From assembly GCA_943736015.1 (NCBI GenBank), contig OX031071.1, forward strand, positions 41,914,619-41,978,618: 64,000 bases of DNA, read 5' to 3'. Position numbers and translations under genes: made by a program. The notes beneath the pieces are model-generated. The model had not been told where the DNA came from and did no database searches. It saw nothing but the letters and a program-made list of their open reading frames with translations. Origin of the DNA: Tridacna crocea. Taxonomy: Eukaryota; Mollusca; Bivalvia; Cardiida; Cardiidae. This document shows positions 3,665 through 51,808 of this stretch, piece by piece; position 1 is the first letter of the stretch; each line of letters opens with the position of its first letter.

Positions 3665-4133
3665 TATTTATATAAGGGATAGTGCAGATACAGGACGAAA
3701 TCCATCCTCTGACGTGCTGGATGTATAGCACAGTCACACGCATCCTCGGATACCCCGGGGTCTCCCTATTTGCTACGCTACATCGACACCTGGGACAATT
3801 TATTGAATTTCCCTCGCTTTACCGCTGGCCGAATGCTTGCTTTTCATTGGTTCCATCATCATTTTGTGATGGGCGAGTGGACTGTACTCTATGACGTTTC
3901 GTATCGATTTTCGGCGGCTGATTCAAAGTTTTATTAGTCATTTCTCCCAGGGTCGATGTAGCGTAGCAAATAGGGAGACCCCGGGGTATCCGAGGATGAG
4001 TCACACGGGACCTTGGTTTAACTTCTCATCCAAAAGATTATTAGTATTAAATTTTGGATGGCCAGCCTTGTGGATCAAACCTATACCCTCATGATCACAA
4101 GTCATACGCTCTACCAACTGAGCTATACAGGCT
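3665..4133 (-). mobile_element. tRNA-derived SINE, interrupted by a 9-bp-TSD MITE
   Basis: Read on the minus strand, 4133-4061 is tRNA-like: box A TAGCTCAGTTGGTAGAGCG, a loop with anticodon TGT (threonine type) and box B GGTTTGATCC. The acceptor stem pairs only partly and the T stem poorly, so this is not a working tRNA. The body continues past GTTAAACCAAGGTCCCGTGTG and is split by the element at 3741-3998. Confidence 0.65.
3741..3998. mobile_element. 258-bp MITE with 9-bp TSD (copy 1)
   Basis: The ends are CATCCTCGGATACCCCGGGG and its inverse, with about 55-60 bp of terminal inverted repeat. It is flanked by the perfect duplication AGTCACACG (3732-3740 and 3999-4007). A 9-bp TSD with long TIRs points to Mutator-like mobilisation. 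Confidence 0.92.
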
Positions 4134-45370: not shown

Positions 45371-45741
45371 GTGTTTTTTGTGGGTGAAAAAAAAAAGTTC
45401 AACTAAATATCATTGAACATGTTCATTTTAAACTTAAATTGACTAGATCTAACTTATTTTTTGTTAAGTTTGAAAAGGGGCTTGGTGGTGAATATAATTA
45501 ATACTATACATGTAGCATTGTGTACAAATGTTTGTAAACATCTTTTATGAGAATAAAACTGTTAGTGACAGCTAGTTTGTTACACCTGATTAGTCCTGAC
45601 ATAAACACAACACCCATAATTGAACGTAATGTAGGATTGAAACCATGCATCATTTTTAAAGAATTAAAAGGATATAAAGTGAATCTGGAGTTAAAACATC
45701 CTTAAAAGGTAAGATGCATGAAGTTTTTAATCTATAACTAA

Positions 45742-46485
45742 GGGTCCTACTAAAACACGCCGTACCAGAAAAATACGCCGTACCATACGCCGTACGGAAA
45801 AAAACACGCCGTACCAAAATCTGCAACTTATTGCTTGCTTTTTTTTGTTTCGTTACGTTGAAAACCATATTATCTCTCTTACCTAGCAATATTAATGCCC
45901 AATTTTTCGTATTTGTCAAGTTATTTGCCAATTTCAGTCATTCTTTCACGGGACCAACAGGTGCCCGTTACGCCGTACCAATTAACTTAGCGCCGTACGA
46001 ATATTGAGGCACAAACAACCAAATTAATAACATTGTTTGATACAATATGCAATTATCTACTTATTTACGAGTTTATGTTGATGTATTTTTATTTCTTACA
46101 GAGTTTGCAAGTACATGTCAAGCATCAAGCAGATATTTACAGAAGGGAAATTACTCTGTTGTACTATTGAAGTTTATACAGAGTTACGCTTCATCACTTT
46201 AACTCCTTCCCAAACGACAAATTTAAGACCCTTCCAAACTCGTTTGCAGACGACAATTTCAAATTTGATAAAAATGGCAGAAAGTTCTGTAGACGGGTAG
46301 ATAATATTGTGGGAAAAGGAGAAATTGCTCGTCACGAGCAATTTCTCCTTTTTCACAGTTTTTTCAATAGACTTATACTGCAGACATGTAAAAACAAGGG
46401 CTTGTTTGGGAAAGGGTTAATGAAGCCGTGTGGAAAAACGTGAAATTGCTTATGGCCATTTCTCTTCTTTTCCGATACTGAAAAA
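45742..46485 (+). repeat. Family A left terminal inverted repeat
   Basis: This arm pairs with 50410-51156. Subterminal sequence has GTACGG / CCGTAC clusters, then a TTAA MITE at 46199-46420, then a stretch matching GGCCATTTCTCTTC in the other arm. Confidence 0.85.
46199..46420 (-). mobile_element. TTAA MITE, CTCGTGACGAG centre, in A left arm
   Basis: TTAACTCCTTCCC and GGAAAGGGTTAA are the ends. The hairpin centre is GAAATTGCTCGTCACGAGC. The empty target TTAA is preserved at 41228-41231 in the short A element. Confidence 0.9.
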
Positions 46486-46557
46486 TAATGTTATTGAAAA
46501 CATTTGGAGAAAAGAAGAAAATTATGGTAACCCTCCTGTAACAAATTGCATTGTTGT

Positions 46558-46713
46558 TTTACCCTTTACCAAACGACTAAAATGTAGCATTGTCCAAATT
46601 GAAAGCATTTGCATGACAATTTCAGTGCAGCTCAAATTGAGAAAGTTTTCCTTGAAAGAGTAGAAAACATTGGGGGAATGCAAAAATCGGGATTATGTGG
46701 TGAAGTGTAAATG
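46558..46713 (-). mobile_element. TTAA MITE with hairpin deleted
   Basis: ACCCTTTACCAAACGAC and CCAAATTGAAAGCATTTGC are followed by GTAGAAAACATTGGGGGAAT and a decayed far end. The palindromic core has been excised. Confidence 0.65.
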
Positions 46714-46879
46714 GTTGTAGAACTCTTAGCCATAAAAATGTTTCCAGACTCAACGACGTGGACGTGGTTCTACCATGAGTCCTTTTTTTTTTTTTTACTT
46801 TTTTTATTTTAAACTAAATTTTATGAACATTAAAACTTTTGTTTTTTCATTTATTAATCTATTTTTACATTTCTTGTGT

Positions 46880-47585
46880 TTTACTATATATTTGTTATCT
46901 GTTTATTTTTTGCCTGGCATCAAAGCTCATTACCACCCTATATTAAAAGGGCACCAAACAAGGACTCGCGGCGTATGAGCTTATAATGACCATGATTATT
47001 AATTTAAACTAATTTATGAATTTGTAATTTTAAAACTCATTAATCAATTTTTACATTTCTGGTGTTTTACTATCTATTCATTGTCTGTTTATTTTTTGCC
47101 TGGCAATAAAGCTCATTACCACCCTATATTAATAGGGCACCAAACAAGGACTCGCGGCGTATGAGCTTATAATGACCATGGTTTTTAATTGAAACTATTT
47201 TATGAATTTGTAATATTAAAACTCAGTTATATTTTTTCATTCATTAACTCATTACCAAACAATATTTTAGGCTTGTCCAAATCGAAAGCATTTGCAGGCA
47301 ACAAAATAAGTGACTGAACATTTGAAATTTGTTTTGTGAAGGATAGAAGACATTGTCACCAGCATTTTCTCCTTTTCCAACAATGTTTTCTAAAGGCTTC
47401 TTTTTCAGGGGAGTCAAAAGTAGGGATTGTGTGGTAATGGGTTAATCTATTCTTATACTTCTGGTGTTTTACTATTTATTTTCTGTTTATTTTTTGCCTG
47501 GCATCATAGCTCATTACCACCCTATATCAATAGGGCACCAAACAAGGACTCGCGGCGTATGAGCTTATAATGACCATGAAACCTT
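46880..47585 (+). repeat. Tandem units of about 180 bp with GGACTCGCGGCGTATGAGC
   Basis: Three full units share GTTTATTTTTTGCCTGGCAT, CCACCCTATATTAA and CGCGGCGTATGAGCTTATAA. A fourth partial unit is at 47838-47870. The third interval is enlarged by a TTAA MITE (47244-47445). The array lies inside the full-length A element. Confidence 0.8.
47244..47445 (-). mobile_element. TTAA MITE with one hairpin arm lost
   Basis: It starts TTAACTCATTACCAAAC and ends GTGGTAATGGGTTAA. The core reads GACATTGTCACCAGCATTTT, so the left arm was deleted up to the palindrome centre. Confidence 0.8.
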
Positions 47586-47705
47586 TTGTTTTAGTTTATT
47601 TTACTGTTATTAATTCTATACCTATTTCATGAATTTGTAACATATTTTTTTTCATTCATTAATCCATTTTTACATGACTAGTTTTGGTATTTCACTATCT
47701 ATTTA

Positions 47706-47842
47706 TTATGAACCAAATTGAAAGCACTTACCTTCGACAAAATTAACGTAACCCAAAAATTGGTAGAAGGCATTGTCGGAAAAGGGGAACATGATGGTTT
47801 CTAGCATTTTTTCCTTTTTCCCTCAATGTTTTCGATAGGACT
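47706..47842 (-). mobile_element. TTAA MITE fragment
   Basis: CCAAATTGAAAGCACTT and a decayed hairpin GGGGAACATGATGGTTTCTAGC are visible; the far end is replaced by the GGACTCGCGGCG tandem unit. Confidence 0.6.
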
Positions 47843-47856
47843 CGCGGCGTATGAGC

Positions 47857-48381
47857 TTATATTGACCATTAAACTTTTTTTAGTTTATTTTTTTCCATAC
47901 ATGGCATGTTATTAACCCTTTTCCGAAGGACAATTTCTCTTTCTTCTGTTCCCACCGTGTTTTCAAACGACAAGTAAAACAATTTTCGATTTGCTAGAGC
48001 GTGGTTACACCAAGAGAAAGCGGAGCAGTCCCCATATTTGCGCTCTAAGAAATGTTTTACTCATTATTCAACTGTATGTTTTCTGTTTTGAATACTCGTT
48101 GTTTTAGCAGATCTAACTCGCTTATAATGACCATTAAACTTTTTTTAGTTTATTTTTTTTCCATACATGACATGTTATTAACCCTTTTCCAAAGGACAAT
48201 TTCTTCTGTTCCCACCGTGTTTTCAAAAGACAAGTAAAACATTGTTTGATTTGCTAGAGCGTGGTTACACCAAGAGAAAGCGGAGCAGTCCCCATATTTG
48301 CGCTCTATAATGCTTTACTCATTATTCAACTTATGTTTTTTGTTTTGAATACTGGTTGTTTTAGCAGATATAACTCGCTTA
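47857..48381 (+). repeat. Direct duplication of about 263 bp
   Basis: The units 47857-48120 and 48121-48381 share GACCATTAAACTTTTTTTAG, AGAGCGTGGTTACACC, GCGGAGCAGTCCCC and TTTTAGCAGAT-TAACTCGC. The second overlaps the 3' end of the MULE frame on the minus strand, so transposase tail sequence was probably duplicated. Confidence 0.8.
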
Positions 48382-49093
48382 ACCTGGCCGGGTTTTTTGG
48401 CTATTTTTGAGGTTACGGGAATAGTTAGCATCATATCGGTTGAACTCACCAATTTATCACAGTCTTTGTGCACGAATCTAAAGAATCTGTCGACCATTTT
48501 CTGTCGACTTTTTTCATTCATATCTAACCAGGAAGAATGACTTGATTTTAGTACATTTGCATTTGCTGATAATTGCAGATTACCCCTGCCATGTAGGGCC
48601 CCGCGAATGTCCAACATCTGAGATATTTCAATGTCTTGTAATCGAGCGATCAGATCATGGAGTTTCGATATATGCCAGTTACCCAGTAATTTAATTTTAT
48701 GGTTCATACTCTCGCAATTATTGTTCTTCCAAAAAAGGGGTATACTTGGATTTTCAAGTCTTGGTATAAATGCATATTGAAAAAGAATGGGTATTAATTT
48801 TTCACTCAAATAACCGTTATCAATGTTGGCGAATTGCTCTACGATTTCTTGTTTTCTTTCAATAAAAGCAAGTCTGCTAGGTAGAGTGAGTATCCCATTA
48901 ATGCCAAATAACTGATTTGTTAAAATTCTCTGAATTTGTTCTGAAACCTGAGCTTTATTTAAGTGCCTTTTCATGTTTTCCTCCAAATGTCGCGTGCATA
49001 AAACCTGGGTGGAGTCAGGGAATGCAGATTTCATTATTGTATGACTTTATAGCTTTAATTAAAGCTTTTATTCCGTCGGTGTAGTTTGTAAAA
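48315..49093 (-). pseudogene. MULE transposase remnant, 5'-truncated and frameshifted
   Basis: The open frame from 49034 to 48315 gives 239 residues matching the C-terminal half of animal Mutator-like transposases. It shows VLCTRHLEENM with the CxxH motif (C13, H16), and NNNCESMNHKIK with the likely catalytic Glu at residue 108. Immediately upstream on the same strand a different frame (49093 to about 49035) reads FTNYTDGIKALIKAIKSYNNE, which carries the TDG motif with the second catalytic Asp. The two frames differ by one step around 49035, so the gene is broken. A possible splice acceptor ATAACAG lies just before this segment; the N-terminal part with the first Asp was not found. The C-terminal end overlaps a local 263-bp duplication. 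The remnant is divergent from the phosphotransferase, with about 320 bp between them. Confidence 0.82.
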
Positions 49094-49415
49094 CTGTTAT
49101 AACATACGCATTAATTGAAATCAGACTTAATTATGTTACTGGTCAAAAGTGTCCGACCGAAATTCTAATTAGCAGGTAAAACAGTAATAATGAAATTTGC
49201 CAAGTGTGACAAACATCAACTGCATATCTTTTCAAAGAAATGCCGACAGCGAAAAACTACAAACGAACTTCCTAAAAAATACATTAAACAAGACTCGATT
49301 GTTTTTTGTTATGCGTTGAGCAGACGGTGCCAAGCGCATCAACAACAGCCATTTAGTGAGAATCCAATACATAAAATGTATATGTAGAGTGTATCACATC
49401 ACAATTATCATTAAA
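49094..49415. promoter_or_regulatory. Divergent intergenic region between MULE remnant and phosphotransferase
   Basis: About 320 bp separate the two divergent reading frames and presumably hold the phosphotransferase promoter. TACATAAAATGTATATG near 49370-49386 is the only TATA-like stretch, but it is close to the start codon. No firm core promoter can be assigned by eye. Confidence 0.3.
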
Positions 49416-49961
49416 ATGGAAGATTTGTCTAGAAGTATCGTTCGTTATCTAAGACATAACCCAGCCGCTGCAGTCAATTGTAATGCCTGCGTTCCAGTCA
49501 CACACATTCTACAGCAATTTCAAATAGATTTCCACAACCTCGAATCTGCGATACAGCAGCCAACAGACAAACAACGCCTCGTCCTGTCCGACTGTAAACA
49601 TTACATATGGGCAGCAGCCGGTCACTCAATACCGGTTGATTTAGACTGCATCGGAACTAGAATTGAGGATCCAGCCTCCATTGAATACTGCTGTCATGGC
49701 ACTACAGTACAAGCCTACGAATACATAAAAGAAGAAGGTTTGAAGAAAATGAATCGCCAGTACATTCACTTTGCCGGTTCCAAGACCCTACTGAAGAAGG
49801 GCTCGCAAGTCATCATCACACTTAATGTTAAGAAATACCTCAAAGAAGGGATGAAGTTGTTCCGCTTAGCAGATGGAAACATCGCTGCATGTGGAAACAG
49901 ATCGGGTATAATAAAGCCATGTTTCTTTAAATGTGTGACTGTGAAAAAACGGCCCTTTTAA
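49416..49961 (+). CDS. TRPT1: tRNA 2'-phosphotransferase (Tpt1/KptA family), transposon-borne, intronless
   Basis: This open frame of 181 residues matches the RNA 2'-phosphotransferase family, which uses NAD+ to remove the 2'-phosphate left at a tRNA splice junction. Visible family blocks: LSRSIVRYLRH at residues 4-14, with the catalytic Arg-His pair at R13-H14; a winged-helix part with VPVTHILQQF and DKQRLVLS at 51-58; IWAAAGHS at 64-71; CHGT at 93-96; GLKKMNRQYIHFA at 108-120 with R114; and a C-terminal GMKLFRLADGNI...GN block. The family motif IRANQGHS has its Arg replaced by Trp65 (TGG, one C-to-T step from CGG) and Asn-Gln by Ala-Ala. That Arg is one of four essential residues in yeast Tpt1, so activity is doubtful or altered. 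I chose the ATG at 49416 because family homology begins right there; an in-frame ATG at 49356 would add 20 unmatched residues. The stop codon lies inside the first downstream hairpin. The gene sits inside a 5.4-kb transposon, divergent from a MULE remnant, and in sense orientation within N6AMT1 intron 1. Confidence 0.92.
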   Translation: MEDLSRSIVRYLRHNPAAAVNCNACVPVTHILQQFQIDFHNLESAIQQPTDKQRLVLSDCKHYIWAAAGHSIPVDLDCIGTRIEDPASIEYCCHGTTVQAYEYIKEEGLKKMNRQYIHFAGSKTLLKKGSQVIITLNVKKYLKEGMKLFRLADGNIAACGNRSGIIKPCFFKCVTVKKRPF

Positions 49962-50035
49962 GGGCCAACCAACAACGGCCCTTGTAAGGGCCAAATACCA
50001 ACGGCCCTTGTTAGGGCCACCAATTTCAAAGAAAT
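49951..50035 (+). terminator. Three tandem histone-mRNA-like 3' stem-loops plus downstream-element-like purine tract
   Basis: Three 16-nt hairpins start at 49951, 49977 and 50003, an exact 26-bp period. Each has six base pairs (GGCCCT / AGGGCC) and a four-base loop: TTTA, TGTA and TGTT. This matches the known histone 3' stem-loop (GGYYYU, four-base loop with U at positions 1 and 3, ARRRCC). Flanks also fit: AAAAAC before the first, AACCA or ACCA after the first and third. CAAAGAAAT at 50027-50035 resembles the purine-rich histone downstream element paired by U7 snRNA. The phosphotransferase stop codon TAA occupies 49959-49961 in the first loop/stem. Function as a processing signal is inference; a bare 26-bp inverted tandem repeat is the alternative. 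Confidence 0.72.
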
Positions 50036-50139
50036 CTATCTATGCGAAAAATTGTCATAAAATTGTTCCCCTTCTTAGTGCCAACACATTGAAGTCAACC
50101 GAAAAAGACGTCTTACCATTACCCTCACCATCCCCAATA

Positions 50140-50252
50140 ATTAAAAAAGGACACGAAAACGGGTTCTTTCGCACATATTTTCTGGGGCAAGAAAATTCAG
50201 GGCCCTGGGCTAGTGCTGGTAAATACAGGAATTAAATGAATATGTGAGCTTC
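50140..50252 (+). mobile_element. SINE body fragment inside the A element
   Basis: CTAGTGCTGGTAAATACAGG and ATGAATATGTGAGCTT match the body of the SINE at 28790-28940. It lies just downstream of the phosphotransferase hairpins. Confidence 0.5.
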
Positions 50253-50257
50253 AGCAA

Positions 50258-50410
50258 ACCAAACAACAAAATTTTAGGCTGTTCTACATTTACAGACGAC
50301 AAAAATGAAATTTCTTCTGGGGGTTAAGAAAACAGAATATGAAAATGAGAAAATACTACTTACTAGTATTTTATCCTTTTCCCAAGATAATTTCAAAAGC
50401 CTTATTTTTC
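50258..50410 (-). mobile_element. TTAA MITE fragment
   Basis: It has TTTACAGACGACAAAAATG and the hairpin GAAAATACTACTTACTAGTATTTT-like core, and abuts the inner edge of the A right arm. Confidence 0.6.
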
Positions 50411-51156
50411 AATATCAGAAAAGAAGAGAAATGGCCGTAAGCAATTTCTCGTTTTACCACATGGTTTCATTAAAGTGAAACCCAAACAAGCCCTTGTTTT
50501 TACATGTCTGCACTCTGCAGTACAAGTCTATTGAAAACACTGTGAAAAAGGAGAAATTGCTCGTGACGAGCAATTTCTCCTTTTCCCACAATATTATCTA
50601 CCCATCTACAGAACTTTCTGCCATTTTTATCAAATTTGAAATTGTCGTCTGCAAACGAGTTTGGAAAGGTCTTAAATTTGTCGTTTGGGAAGGAGTTAAA
50701 GTGATGAAGCGTAACTCTGTATAAACTTCAATAGTACAACAGAGTAATTTCCCTTCTGTAAATATCTGCTTGATGCTTGAAATGTACTTGCAAACTCTGT
50801 AAGAAATAAAAATACATCAACATAAACTCGTAAATAAGTAGATAATTGCATATTGTATCAAACAATGTCATTAATTTGGTTGTTTGTGCCTCAAAATTCG
50901 TACGGCGCTAAGTTAATTGGTACGGCGTAACGGGCACCTGTTGGTCCCGTGAAAGAATGACTGAAATTGGCAAATAACTTGACAAATACGAAAAATTGGG
51001 CATTAATATTGCTAGGTAAGATAGATAATATGGTTTTCAACATAACGAAACAAAAAAAAGCAAGCAATAAGTTGCAGATTTTGGTACGGCGTGTTTTTTT
51101 CCGTACGGCGTATGGTACGGCGTATTTTTCTGGTACGGCGTGTTTTAGTGGGACCG
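50410..51156 (-). repeat. Family A right terminal inverted repeat
   Basis: This is the inverse of the left arm, including the MITE copy at 50470-50699. The MITE end nearest 50470 has diverged (TTAAAGTGAAACCC instead of TTAACCCTTTCCC). Confidence 0.85.
50470..50699 (+). mobile_element. TTAA MITE, same insertion in A right arm
   Basis: Inverse of 46199-46420; hairpin GAAATTGCTCGTGACGAGC, ending GGGAAGGAGTTAA. Confidence 0.88.
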
Positions 51157-51808
51157 ATAACTAACACTGAAATTATTTCAATAAAAATTTTACTTTGGGT
51201 ACGTTTTGACTTAAATTTTGGGTACGTTTTGACTTAACTTTTGGGTACGTTTTGACTTATTTTTTGGGTACGTTTTGGTTTGGGTACGTTTTGACCGCAT
51301 ACCTATATGTTGGATTGAAGAATGAACTTACCCTCTGTAACCTGCGAAAAATTCCAAATTTTAAACACAAATGGTCACCATAAGGGTGAATGAAAATCAG
51401 TAGCAGACATAAACAGTCGGTGTAATGTGACACGTGTGCGTTATTATTTTTATTTCCACCAAGCAAATACGTTACAACTCTTGGGTCGTCCACACTGCAG
51501 TGCGATACCGAGATCAAAGGCACAAGGAAACCCTTCACCCTTTTTGTGAAAATTCATATGACACGTACAAAGTATTTCTTAAAAACTTTTGAGAACTGGA
51601 TTATAAATATTTTGTGGATGGGGATGGAAAATTAAAAATTTGAACTGAAGCTATATGTTTTGGAACATGACTAAGTTATGCACAACATAAAAAGTTCGGG
51701 TTTTTTTTTTAAGGATCGTAATTTTCTTAATATTCAAAAGTATGCTTTAAGTGCTGTAATTTTAGTAAATGGACTGTCCCTGTTTCTTTCAAGACACCGG
51801 AAAGATTC

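Follow-up and report, generated by a model that had tools for sequence, protein, structure and literature searches.

The window analyzed here is a stretch of 64,000 nucleotides from the genome of Tridacna crocea (assembly GCA_943736015.1, contig OX031071.1, positions 41,914,619 to 41,978,618 of the forward strand). At 45742–51156 it holds a transposon of the Mutator-like element (MULE) type, 5,415 bp long, with terminal inverted repeats (TIRs) and a divergent pair of genes: a transposase remnant on the reverse strand and, on the forward strand, a frame of the Tpt1/KptA family of tRNA 2′-phosphotransferases (hereafter KptA). The element had been described in an earlier sequence-only reading, which did not include a tandem of three histone-type stem-loops where the KptA frame ends (49951–50018). 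The features of the element are as follows.

45734–45741, no strand: left target-site duplication ATAACTAA, a perfect 8-bp duplication
45742–46530, forward: left TIR with tip GGGTCCTACTAAAACACGCC; main arm 45743–46384, weaker extension to about 46530
48315–49034, reverse: MULE transposase remnant, open reading frame of 239 aa, C-terminal part including CTRH and NNNCESMNH; domain recognized through the relative L055
49416–49961, forward: Tpt1/KptA-family open reading frame, 181 aa, PF01885; tetrad positions R13, H14, W65 and R114
49951–49966, forward: first histone-type stem-loop, GGCCCTTTTAAGGGCC, which spans the stop codon of KptA and fits the pattern GGYYYTTHTHARRRCC exactly
49977–49992, forward: second histone-type stem-loop, with a single deviation from this pattern
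50003–50018, forward: third histone-type stem-loop, likewise with a single deviation, followed by ACCAATTTCAAAGAAATC, which resembles a downstream element
50360–51156, reverse: right TIR; main arm 50514–51155
51157–51164, no strand: right target-site duplication ATAACTAA, a perfect 8-bp duplication

Boundaries of the element

The main arms (45743–46384 and 50514–51155) extend over 642 nt with 98% complementarity. Two further pieces continue them inward, one of 32 nt (46379–46410 and 50481–50512) with 100% complementarity and one of 114 nt (46417–46530 and 50360–50473) with 82%. Target-site duplications (TSDs) of at least 8 nt flank all 15 of the elements compared, 14 of them with 8–10 nt and one reading as 12 in G-rich flanks, and none of 210 mismatched flank pairs shows a duplication when the same slack of at most 2 nt per element end is permitted. 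The TSDs are therefore not due to chance. The coordinates, the arms and this control all agree with the earlier description of a 5,415-bp element with long inverted arms and a perfect 8-bp TSD. Folding of the left arm over its first 369 nt shows nothing special in structure (z 0.01).

Both arms contain a near-perfect palindrome, AAAAGGAGAAATTGCTCGT(C/G)ACGAGCAATTTCTCCTTTT, at 46307–46357 and 50541–50591. Elements of a second family, B, introduced below, also have a repeat related to this palindrome (about 230 bp, roughly 70–75% identity), which may be an older insertion in the arms. A 186-bp direct repeat is present three times in the interval from the left arm to the transposase remnant (46842–47611, 69–100% identical to the reference), and further copies of its inner motif AGGACTCGCGGCGTATGAGCTTATA run up to 47894.

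Transposase and classification

The transposase remnant has lost the 5′ part of the catalytic domain, so that the window copy retains a 239-aa C-terminal fragment in place of a complete transposase, and a comparison of the remnant itself with Pfam gave no match at E ≤ 1. Its top match in the genome lies at C2:66265849-66266553 (loci and contigs of the genome are given with the prefixes L and C), is 64% identical and forms part of an open frame of 1041 aa. A segment of 451 bases, L055, overlaps the start of this relative and runs upstream; it encodes GIDRTF...GSDEEQAL...CTRHL and matches PF10551 (MULE) at 30.1 bits, above the cut-off of 27.6. Because of this match and the TSDs in all 15 elements, the MULE class holds for the element group; the TSD range of the superfamily is given as about 8–11 bp in a passage of PMC6446971. 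The earlier identification of a MULE transposase remnant is thus upheld through the C2 relative, although not by a match of the remnant itself.

Histone-type stem-loops at the 3′ ends of KptA genes

The window KptA frame matches PF01885 at 82.8 bits (cut-off 26). At its stop codon, the first stem-loop fits exactly the 16-nt pattern GGYYYTTHTHARRRCC, which we take to be that of histone-type stem-loops. Across the window and loci L029–L048 (264 kb) the exact pattern occurs 18 times, every time at a KptA end, two of the occurrences being the opposite strand of palindromic copies, and 20 block shuffles gave 0 or 1 occurrence each. With up to two mismatches permitted, it is found at 16 of 17 KptA ends and in 7 of 850 shuffled regions.

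Searches with the Rfam model RF00032, whose gathering score is 34 bits, point to the same place. In 140 kb comprising 14 KptA loci, all nine matches that reach the gathering score fall at the 3′ end of a KptA gene, so that 9 of the 14 loci attain it; below it, matches at KptA ends score 33.5 (L036), 32.8 (L042), 32.6 (L046) and 30.2 bits (L045). In the window, there is a match at 49998–50043 (30.8 bits, E 6.7e-6), a second at the KptA end (23.6 bits) and a weak one on the reverse strand away from the KptA end (49026–49071, 23.0 bits). Since several of the gathering-level loci are near-identical copies of family B, the independent evidence consists of the lineages B, L041, L036/L042 and A. Genome-wide, with the best 75 of 323,229 first-look candidates scored, 70 places were reported and at least 47 reach the gathering score. 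A single periodic array at C13:7.05–7.47 Mb, taken to be putative histone genes, accounts for 34 of the 47; of the 13 listed outside it, 12 share the strand of a KptA match and lie −6 to +81 nt from its end.

In an alignment of 11 copies, many of them near-identical B copies, the stem-loop core GGCCCTTNTNAGGGCCAC is nearly fixed, and AGAA follows 10–11 nt 3′ of the stem-loop in 10 of the 11 (L046 is one base off). The canonical spacing between the histone stem-loop and the downstream purine-rich element is similar to the approximately 11 nt seen here. Stem-loop and purine-rich element are both present at KptA 3′ ends in the A, B and L036/L042 lineages. Loop 3 of the window shares 14 of 16 core positions with family B, for which the chance under saturated drift is 3e-7 to 6e-4 (neutral identity 0.25–0.45).

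No histone-type stem-loop was found at the 3′ end of the transposase (730 nt scanned). Matches of miRNA families on hairpins were far below their gathering scores, and we took them as chance matches on palindromes. At the other end of the KptA gene, TATA-like stretches were seen by eye about 30–55 nt 5′ of the start: CATATATATATAC in L029 (4700–4758) and CCTTTAAATAG in L036 (5266–5340).

Copies and TIR families in the genome

PF01885 matches the genome at 77 places, including host exons. A search with the window KptA protein gave at least 150 matches (the best 150 of 212 candidates), which merge within 1 kb into at least 132 places on C1–C18 of the 31 contigs. For the TIRs, the best 40 scored candidates per query were taken; with the window TIR, 40 of 72 rows were used, 32 partial or inner matches being dropped. 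Among the matches listed, a KptA is found on the inner side of the TIR at 7 of 12 places of type A1 (the window's own TIR type), at 15 of 18 places of type A2 (the 86% type) and, with the A2 TIR as query, at 38 of 41 places, one 29-base match being excluded. For family B the count is 14 of 23, or 11 of 17 where both ends are present, and it may be too low because it is based on matches to the window protein. The chance expectation is about 0.0006 per window of sequence.

At least two TIR-defined families hold KptA and have the tip GGTCC in common. Elements of family A terminate in GGTCCTACTAAAACACGCC and those of family B (L029–L035 and L037) in GGTCCCCCTAAACACAGAACC. L036 starts differently, with GGTCCATAGAAGTACTGAAACG, and its right end is decayed, so that a third TIR family, represented by L036, is likely but less certain.

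In six A1 copies, the transposase from residue 88 is fused to KptA from residue 127–128. These fusions are the footprint of one internal deletion, and their ancestor had both genes in the order seen in the window. L047 and L048 have the transposase tail only, and L044 has neither gene. The question raised earlier, whether independent full-length copies carry the same two genes, thus has a divided answer: many keep KptA, but some full-length copies are without it.

At C10:39444799-39445275 and C10:39449639-39449914, a distant transposase match (35% identity) and a KptA match are separated by about 4.4 kb, and the two may belong to a further element type that has both genes. On C13, near 5.445–5.455 Mb, there is a comparable pair with a distance of about 10 kb.

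Selection on KptA

We fitted codon models in IQ-TREE with one omega (dN/dS) per tree and with stop codons masked, and compared each with omega fixed at 1 through twice the log-likelihood difference (2ΔlnL). Across the A and B lineages (the window KptA, L036, L029 and L041) omega is 0.228 (2ΔlnL 103), and for the window KptA with L036, L042 and L040 it is 0.295 (2ΔlnL 43.2). For eight recent B copies (omega 1.29, 2ΔlnL 0.3) and for recent A copies (the window, L043, L046b and L040; omega 0.66, 2ΔlnL 1.8) there is no difference from 1. A set of six A copies gives 2ΔlnL 20.7; for nine B copies, compared over their first 45 codons, the value is 3.8, at the edge of significance. In pairwise comparisons (NG86), the window or L036 against full B copies shows a saturated proportion of synonymous differences (pS about 0.83–0.89) and a nonsynonymous proportion (pN) of about 0.32–0.36; omega is 0.18 at dS 0.97 between the window and L036 and 0.73 between the window and L046b.

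These comparisons indicate that the old KptA lineages are under purifying selection and that recent copies drift near-neutrally. The neutrality that had been named as a possible outcome of a dN/dS test is therefore seen among recent copies but not on old branches, and neutral evolution of the cargo, as expected of Pack-MULEs, does not extend to the deep comparisons. The codon data look like those of element genes that were under constraint in their source lineages and drifted once inserted; they are also compatible with a selected donor outside the elements.

Origin of the element KptA

In a tree, the five element KptAs included group as a single clade (100/100) whose stem is long. The host TRPT1 gene lies on C3 (L039) and is split into separate exons, with splice sites placed by eye and the end of the gene beyond the L039 stretch. 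It matches chain 7yw2 (tRNA 2′-phosphotransferase 1), presumably a mammalian chain, at 5e-29, whereas the element KptA profile reaches this chain at 3e-6 and 7kw8 at 1e-11. The TRPT1 match of the host gene and the C13 array of histone-type stem-loops both suit an animal host. The C-terminal block of the element KptA near GN..G..P.FK aligns with 7yw2, and four other alignments stop before the block. A grouping of the element clade with host TRPT1 is not rejected by the approximately unbiased (AU) test (p-AU 0.443).

Judged by similarity, host TRPT1 is unlikely to have been captured recently, and an old host origin is compatible with the tree. The sequence-only reading had offered gene capture as one of two alternatives; a simple capture of the host gene gains no support from the exon structure of that gene and its far better TRPT1 match, yet the tree leaves room for it. 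Further afield, collections of viral contigs and genome contigs yielded 59 and 66 stretches with the pattern, among which tblastn confirmed no relative, and the KptAs of plasmid and phage records (27 and 67) are only about 25–33% identical among the rows listed.

Interpretation

We consider it probable that the window element is one of a set of mostly non-autonomous MULEs whose standing gene is an intronless KptA unit with a histone-type stem-loop end. Recurrence of KptA in separate TIR families, a single clade of the five element KptAs compared and deep purifying selection all support KptA as a standing component, the other alternative that had been put forward.

A number of observations weigh against this reading. 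An Arg-His-Arg-Arg tetrad is described as essential in Tpt1 (PMC6333775), and the window KptA has Trp65 in place of the second Arg; the ‘complete’ frame reported earlier is thus an open 181-aa frame with PF01885 that has lost one of four catalytic residues. L040 has the same Trp, and L036 has His for the last Arg. Of the nine B copies, three have lost tetrad residues (L034 and L035 with Gly for the first Arg, L038 without the second and last Arg); the other six (L029, L030, L031, L032, L033 and L037) keep all four, L031 with stops and L037 with a frameshift. Since the tetrad is broken in the window but intact in six of nine B copies, the window copy is probably dead as a phosphotransferase, whereas its lineage probably was not. 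In the genome, the majority of the listed KptA copies are partial, mainly aa 85–181, and, among the matches listed, no KptA appears at 9 of the 23 places of family B or at 5 of the 12 of type A1. The long-frame transposase copy at C2:66265849 has no KptA within 5 Mb among the 150 listed matches, and none of 44 transposase matches falls, by eye, in a B element. The stem-loops of the window remain under the RF00032 gathering score, the L043 KptA end has no stem-loop in the scan of 17 KptA ends with up to two mismatches, and the strongest RF00032 place outside the C13 array (C13:14040566-14040610, 41.3 bits) is at no listed KptA match. Finally, L036 and L042 have little in common with the window element beyond the KptA cassette, so that the cassette may move between element types.

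Part of this evidence would suit a passive hitchhiker, a KptA captured once by a MULE in the style of Pack-MULEs, spread with its copies and useless to the element. The near-neutral recent copies (omega 1.29 in B and 0.66 in A), the many partial copies, the missing catalytic Arg and a closest long-frame transposase without KptA among the listed matches are all as such an account would have them. We nevertheless judge it improbable, given the constraint on old lineages (omega 0.228 and 0.295), the saturation of synonymous sites between the window or L036 and full B copies at a much lower pN, and the 14 of 16 stem-loop core positions shared by window loop 3 and family B. It is also rather unlikely, in our view, that a separate host or viral KptA with a histone-type end was the selected lineage and that its cassette was taken more than once by MULE families. 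The TIRs of A, B and L036 are barely alike past the GGTCC tip, L036 and L042 have mainly the open reading frame cassette in common with the window, and KptA places such as C9:39243523 and C18:19047199 are not linked to a TIR pair, all of which would fit repeated capture. However, no donor was found: the sole host TRPT1 examined is exon-split and clearly different, with no stem-loop reported nearby, and the element KptAs tested form one clade. An assembly artefact or a chance inverted repeat, which had been named as a possible undoing of the element, has nothing found in its favor and is scarcely credible: independent copies lie on different contigs with different perfect TSDs, present in all 15 elements, and an identical inner order.

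Possible function

The window copy, which lacks a complete transposase, would need one in trans, and relatives such as the C2 long-frame copy would supply it. Metazoan histone mRNAs have a stem-loop end in place of poly(A) and depend on SLBP (PMC2781718). KptA mRNA would probably be cut through the SLBP/U7 pathway, giving a non-polyadenylated transcript made in S phase, and selection would have favored element lineages that make the enzyme.

With NAD+, the enzyme would process phosphorylated ends of RNA; its benefit to the element is the least certain step. It might clear 2′-phosphates after RNA cleavage and ligation, or it might cap 5′-monophosphate ends with ADP-ribose so that element RNA escapes decay. 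Human TRPT1 is reported to ADP-ribose-cap 5′-monophosphate RNA, and the capped RNA to be resistant to XRN1 in vitro and untranslated in vitro or after transfection (PMC9458441). The RNA of a long-armed element could form hairpins and be cut, in which case the element might gain from an RNA-end enzyme made in S phase. In SOS splicing, the hairpin that the inverted repeats form directs the excision. Animals are described as removing DNA transposons from mRNAs by SOS splicing, with ligation by RTCB (PMC13247085). We tentatively suggest, while thinking it less probable than its opposite, that these transposons have co-opted the host's replication-dependent histone 3′-end machinery to produce, in S phase, an RNA-repair enzyme from an mRNA without poly(A), and use it to counter or exploit the handling of transposons at the RNA level, for example by healing SOS-splicing ends or by ADP-ribose-capping their own RNA.

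The combination may show how a transposon uses the S-phase machinery of the cell. If this is true, mRNA processing would tie transposition to S phase, the elements would serve as a natural experiment on SLBP/U7 use beyond histone genes, and a Tpt1 enzyme would have a biological role in animals, for which a review states that there is so far no evidence of a full yeast-like ligation pathway operating (PMC13247085).

Relation to known systems

To our knowledge, no DNA transposon of animals has been described as keeping an RNA-repair enzyme under selection, or as having a histone-type 3′ end. Among the papers listed in searches of the open-licence PMC literature, none describes a KptA-carrying or histone-stem-loop transposon, as judged by title or the start of the abstract, which agrees with the earlier statement that no animal element with Tpt1 cargo was known. 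The MULE class is known; what looks new is the combination of a transposon KptA with a histone-type end.

Mutator-like elements such as Phantom and the molluscan MULE groups likewise have TIRs, TSDs of about 8–10 bp and PF10551, here in a close relative. The extra features noted for these groups are OTU, SET and FAR1, with no combination of KptA and histone stem-loop, and the main text of that article never names ‘phosphotransferase’ (PMC6446971). Pack-MULEs and Pack-TIR elements (PMC8277862) are also non-autonomous TIR elements with a non-transposase gene; in contrast to them, KptA occurs here in at least two TIR families, under deep purifying selection and with its own 3′-end signal. With the Tpt1/KptA/TRPT1 2′-phosphotransferases (PMC6333775), the element enzymes share PF01885 and, in the six B copies, the Arg-His-Arg-Arg tetrad, but they are transposon-encoded and the window copy is one Arg short. 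The stem-loop consensus, the downstream purine-rich element and its spacing resemble those of replication-dependent histone mRNA 3′ ends (RF00032); here, in contrast, they are predicted from sequence on a transposon-borne enzyme gene, below the gathering score in the window.

A standing extra enzyme in an animal DNA transposon has a parallel in KolobokP, rich in bivalves and carrying a His-Me nuclease; it belongs to another superfamily, and its enzyme is a DNA nuclease in place of an RNA-repair enzyme (PMC9587614). The KptAs of animal RNA viruses and phages are likewise borne on selfish elements, and transposons are not mentioned in the main text that describes them (PMC9503650).

Features outside the elements

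A short tandem repeat with a period of 23 bp (TTTGGGTACGTTTTGACTTAA) occupies 51194–51277 of the window and begins about 30 bp outside the right TSD. Matches to the tRNA family were seen outside the elements, at 710–783 and 999–1072 of L037 and at 4078–4132 of the window.

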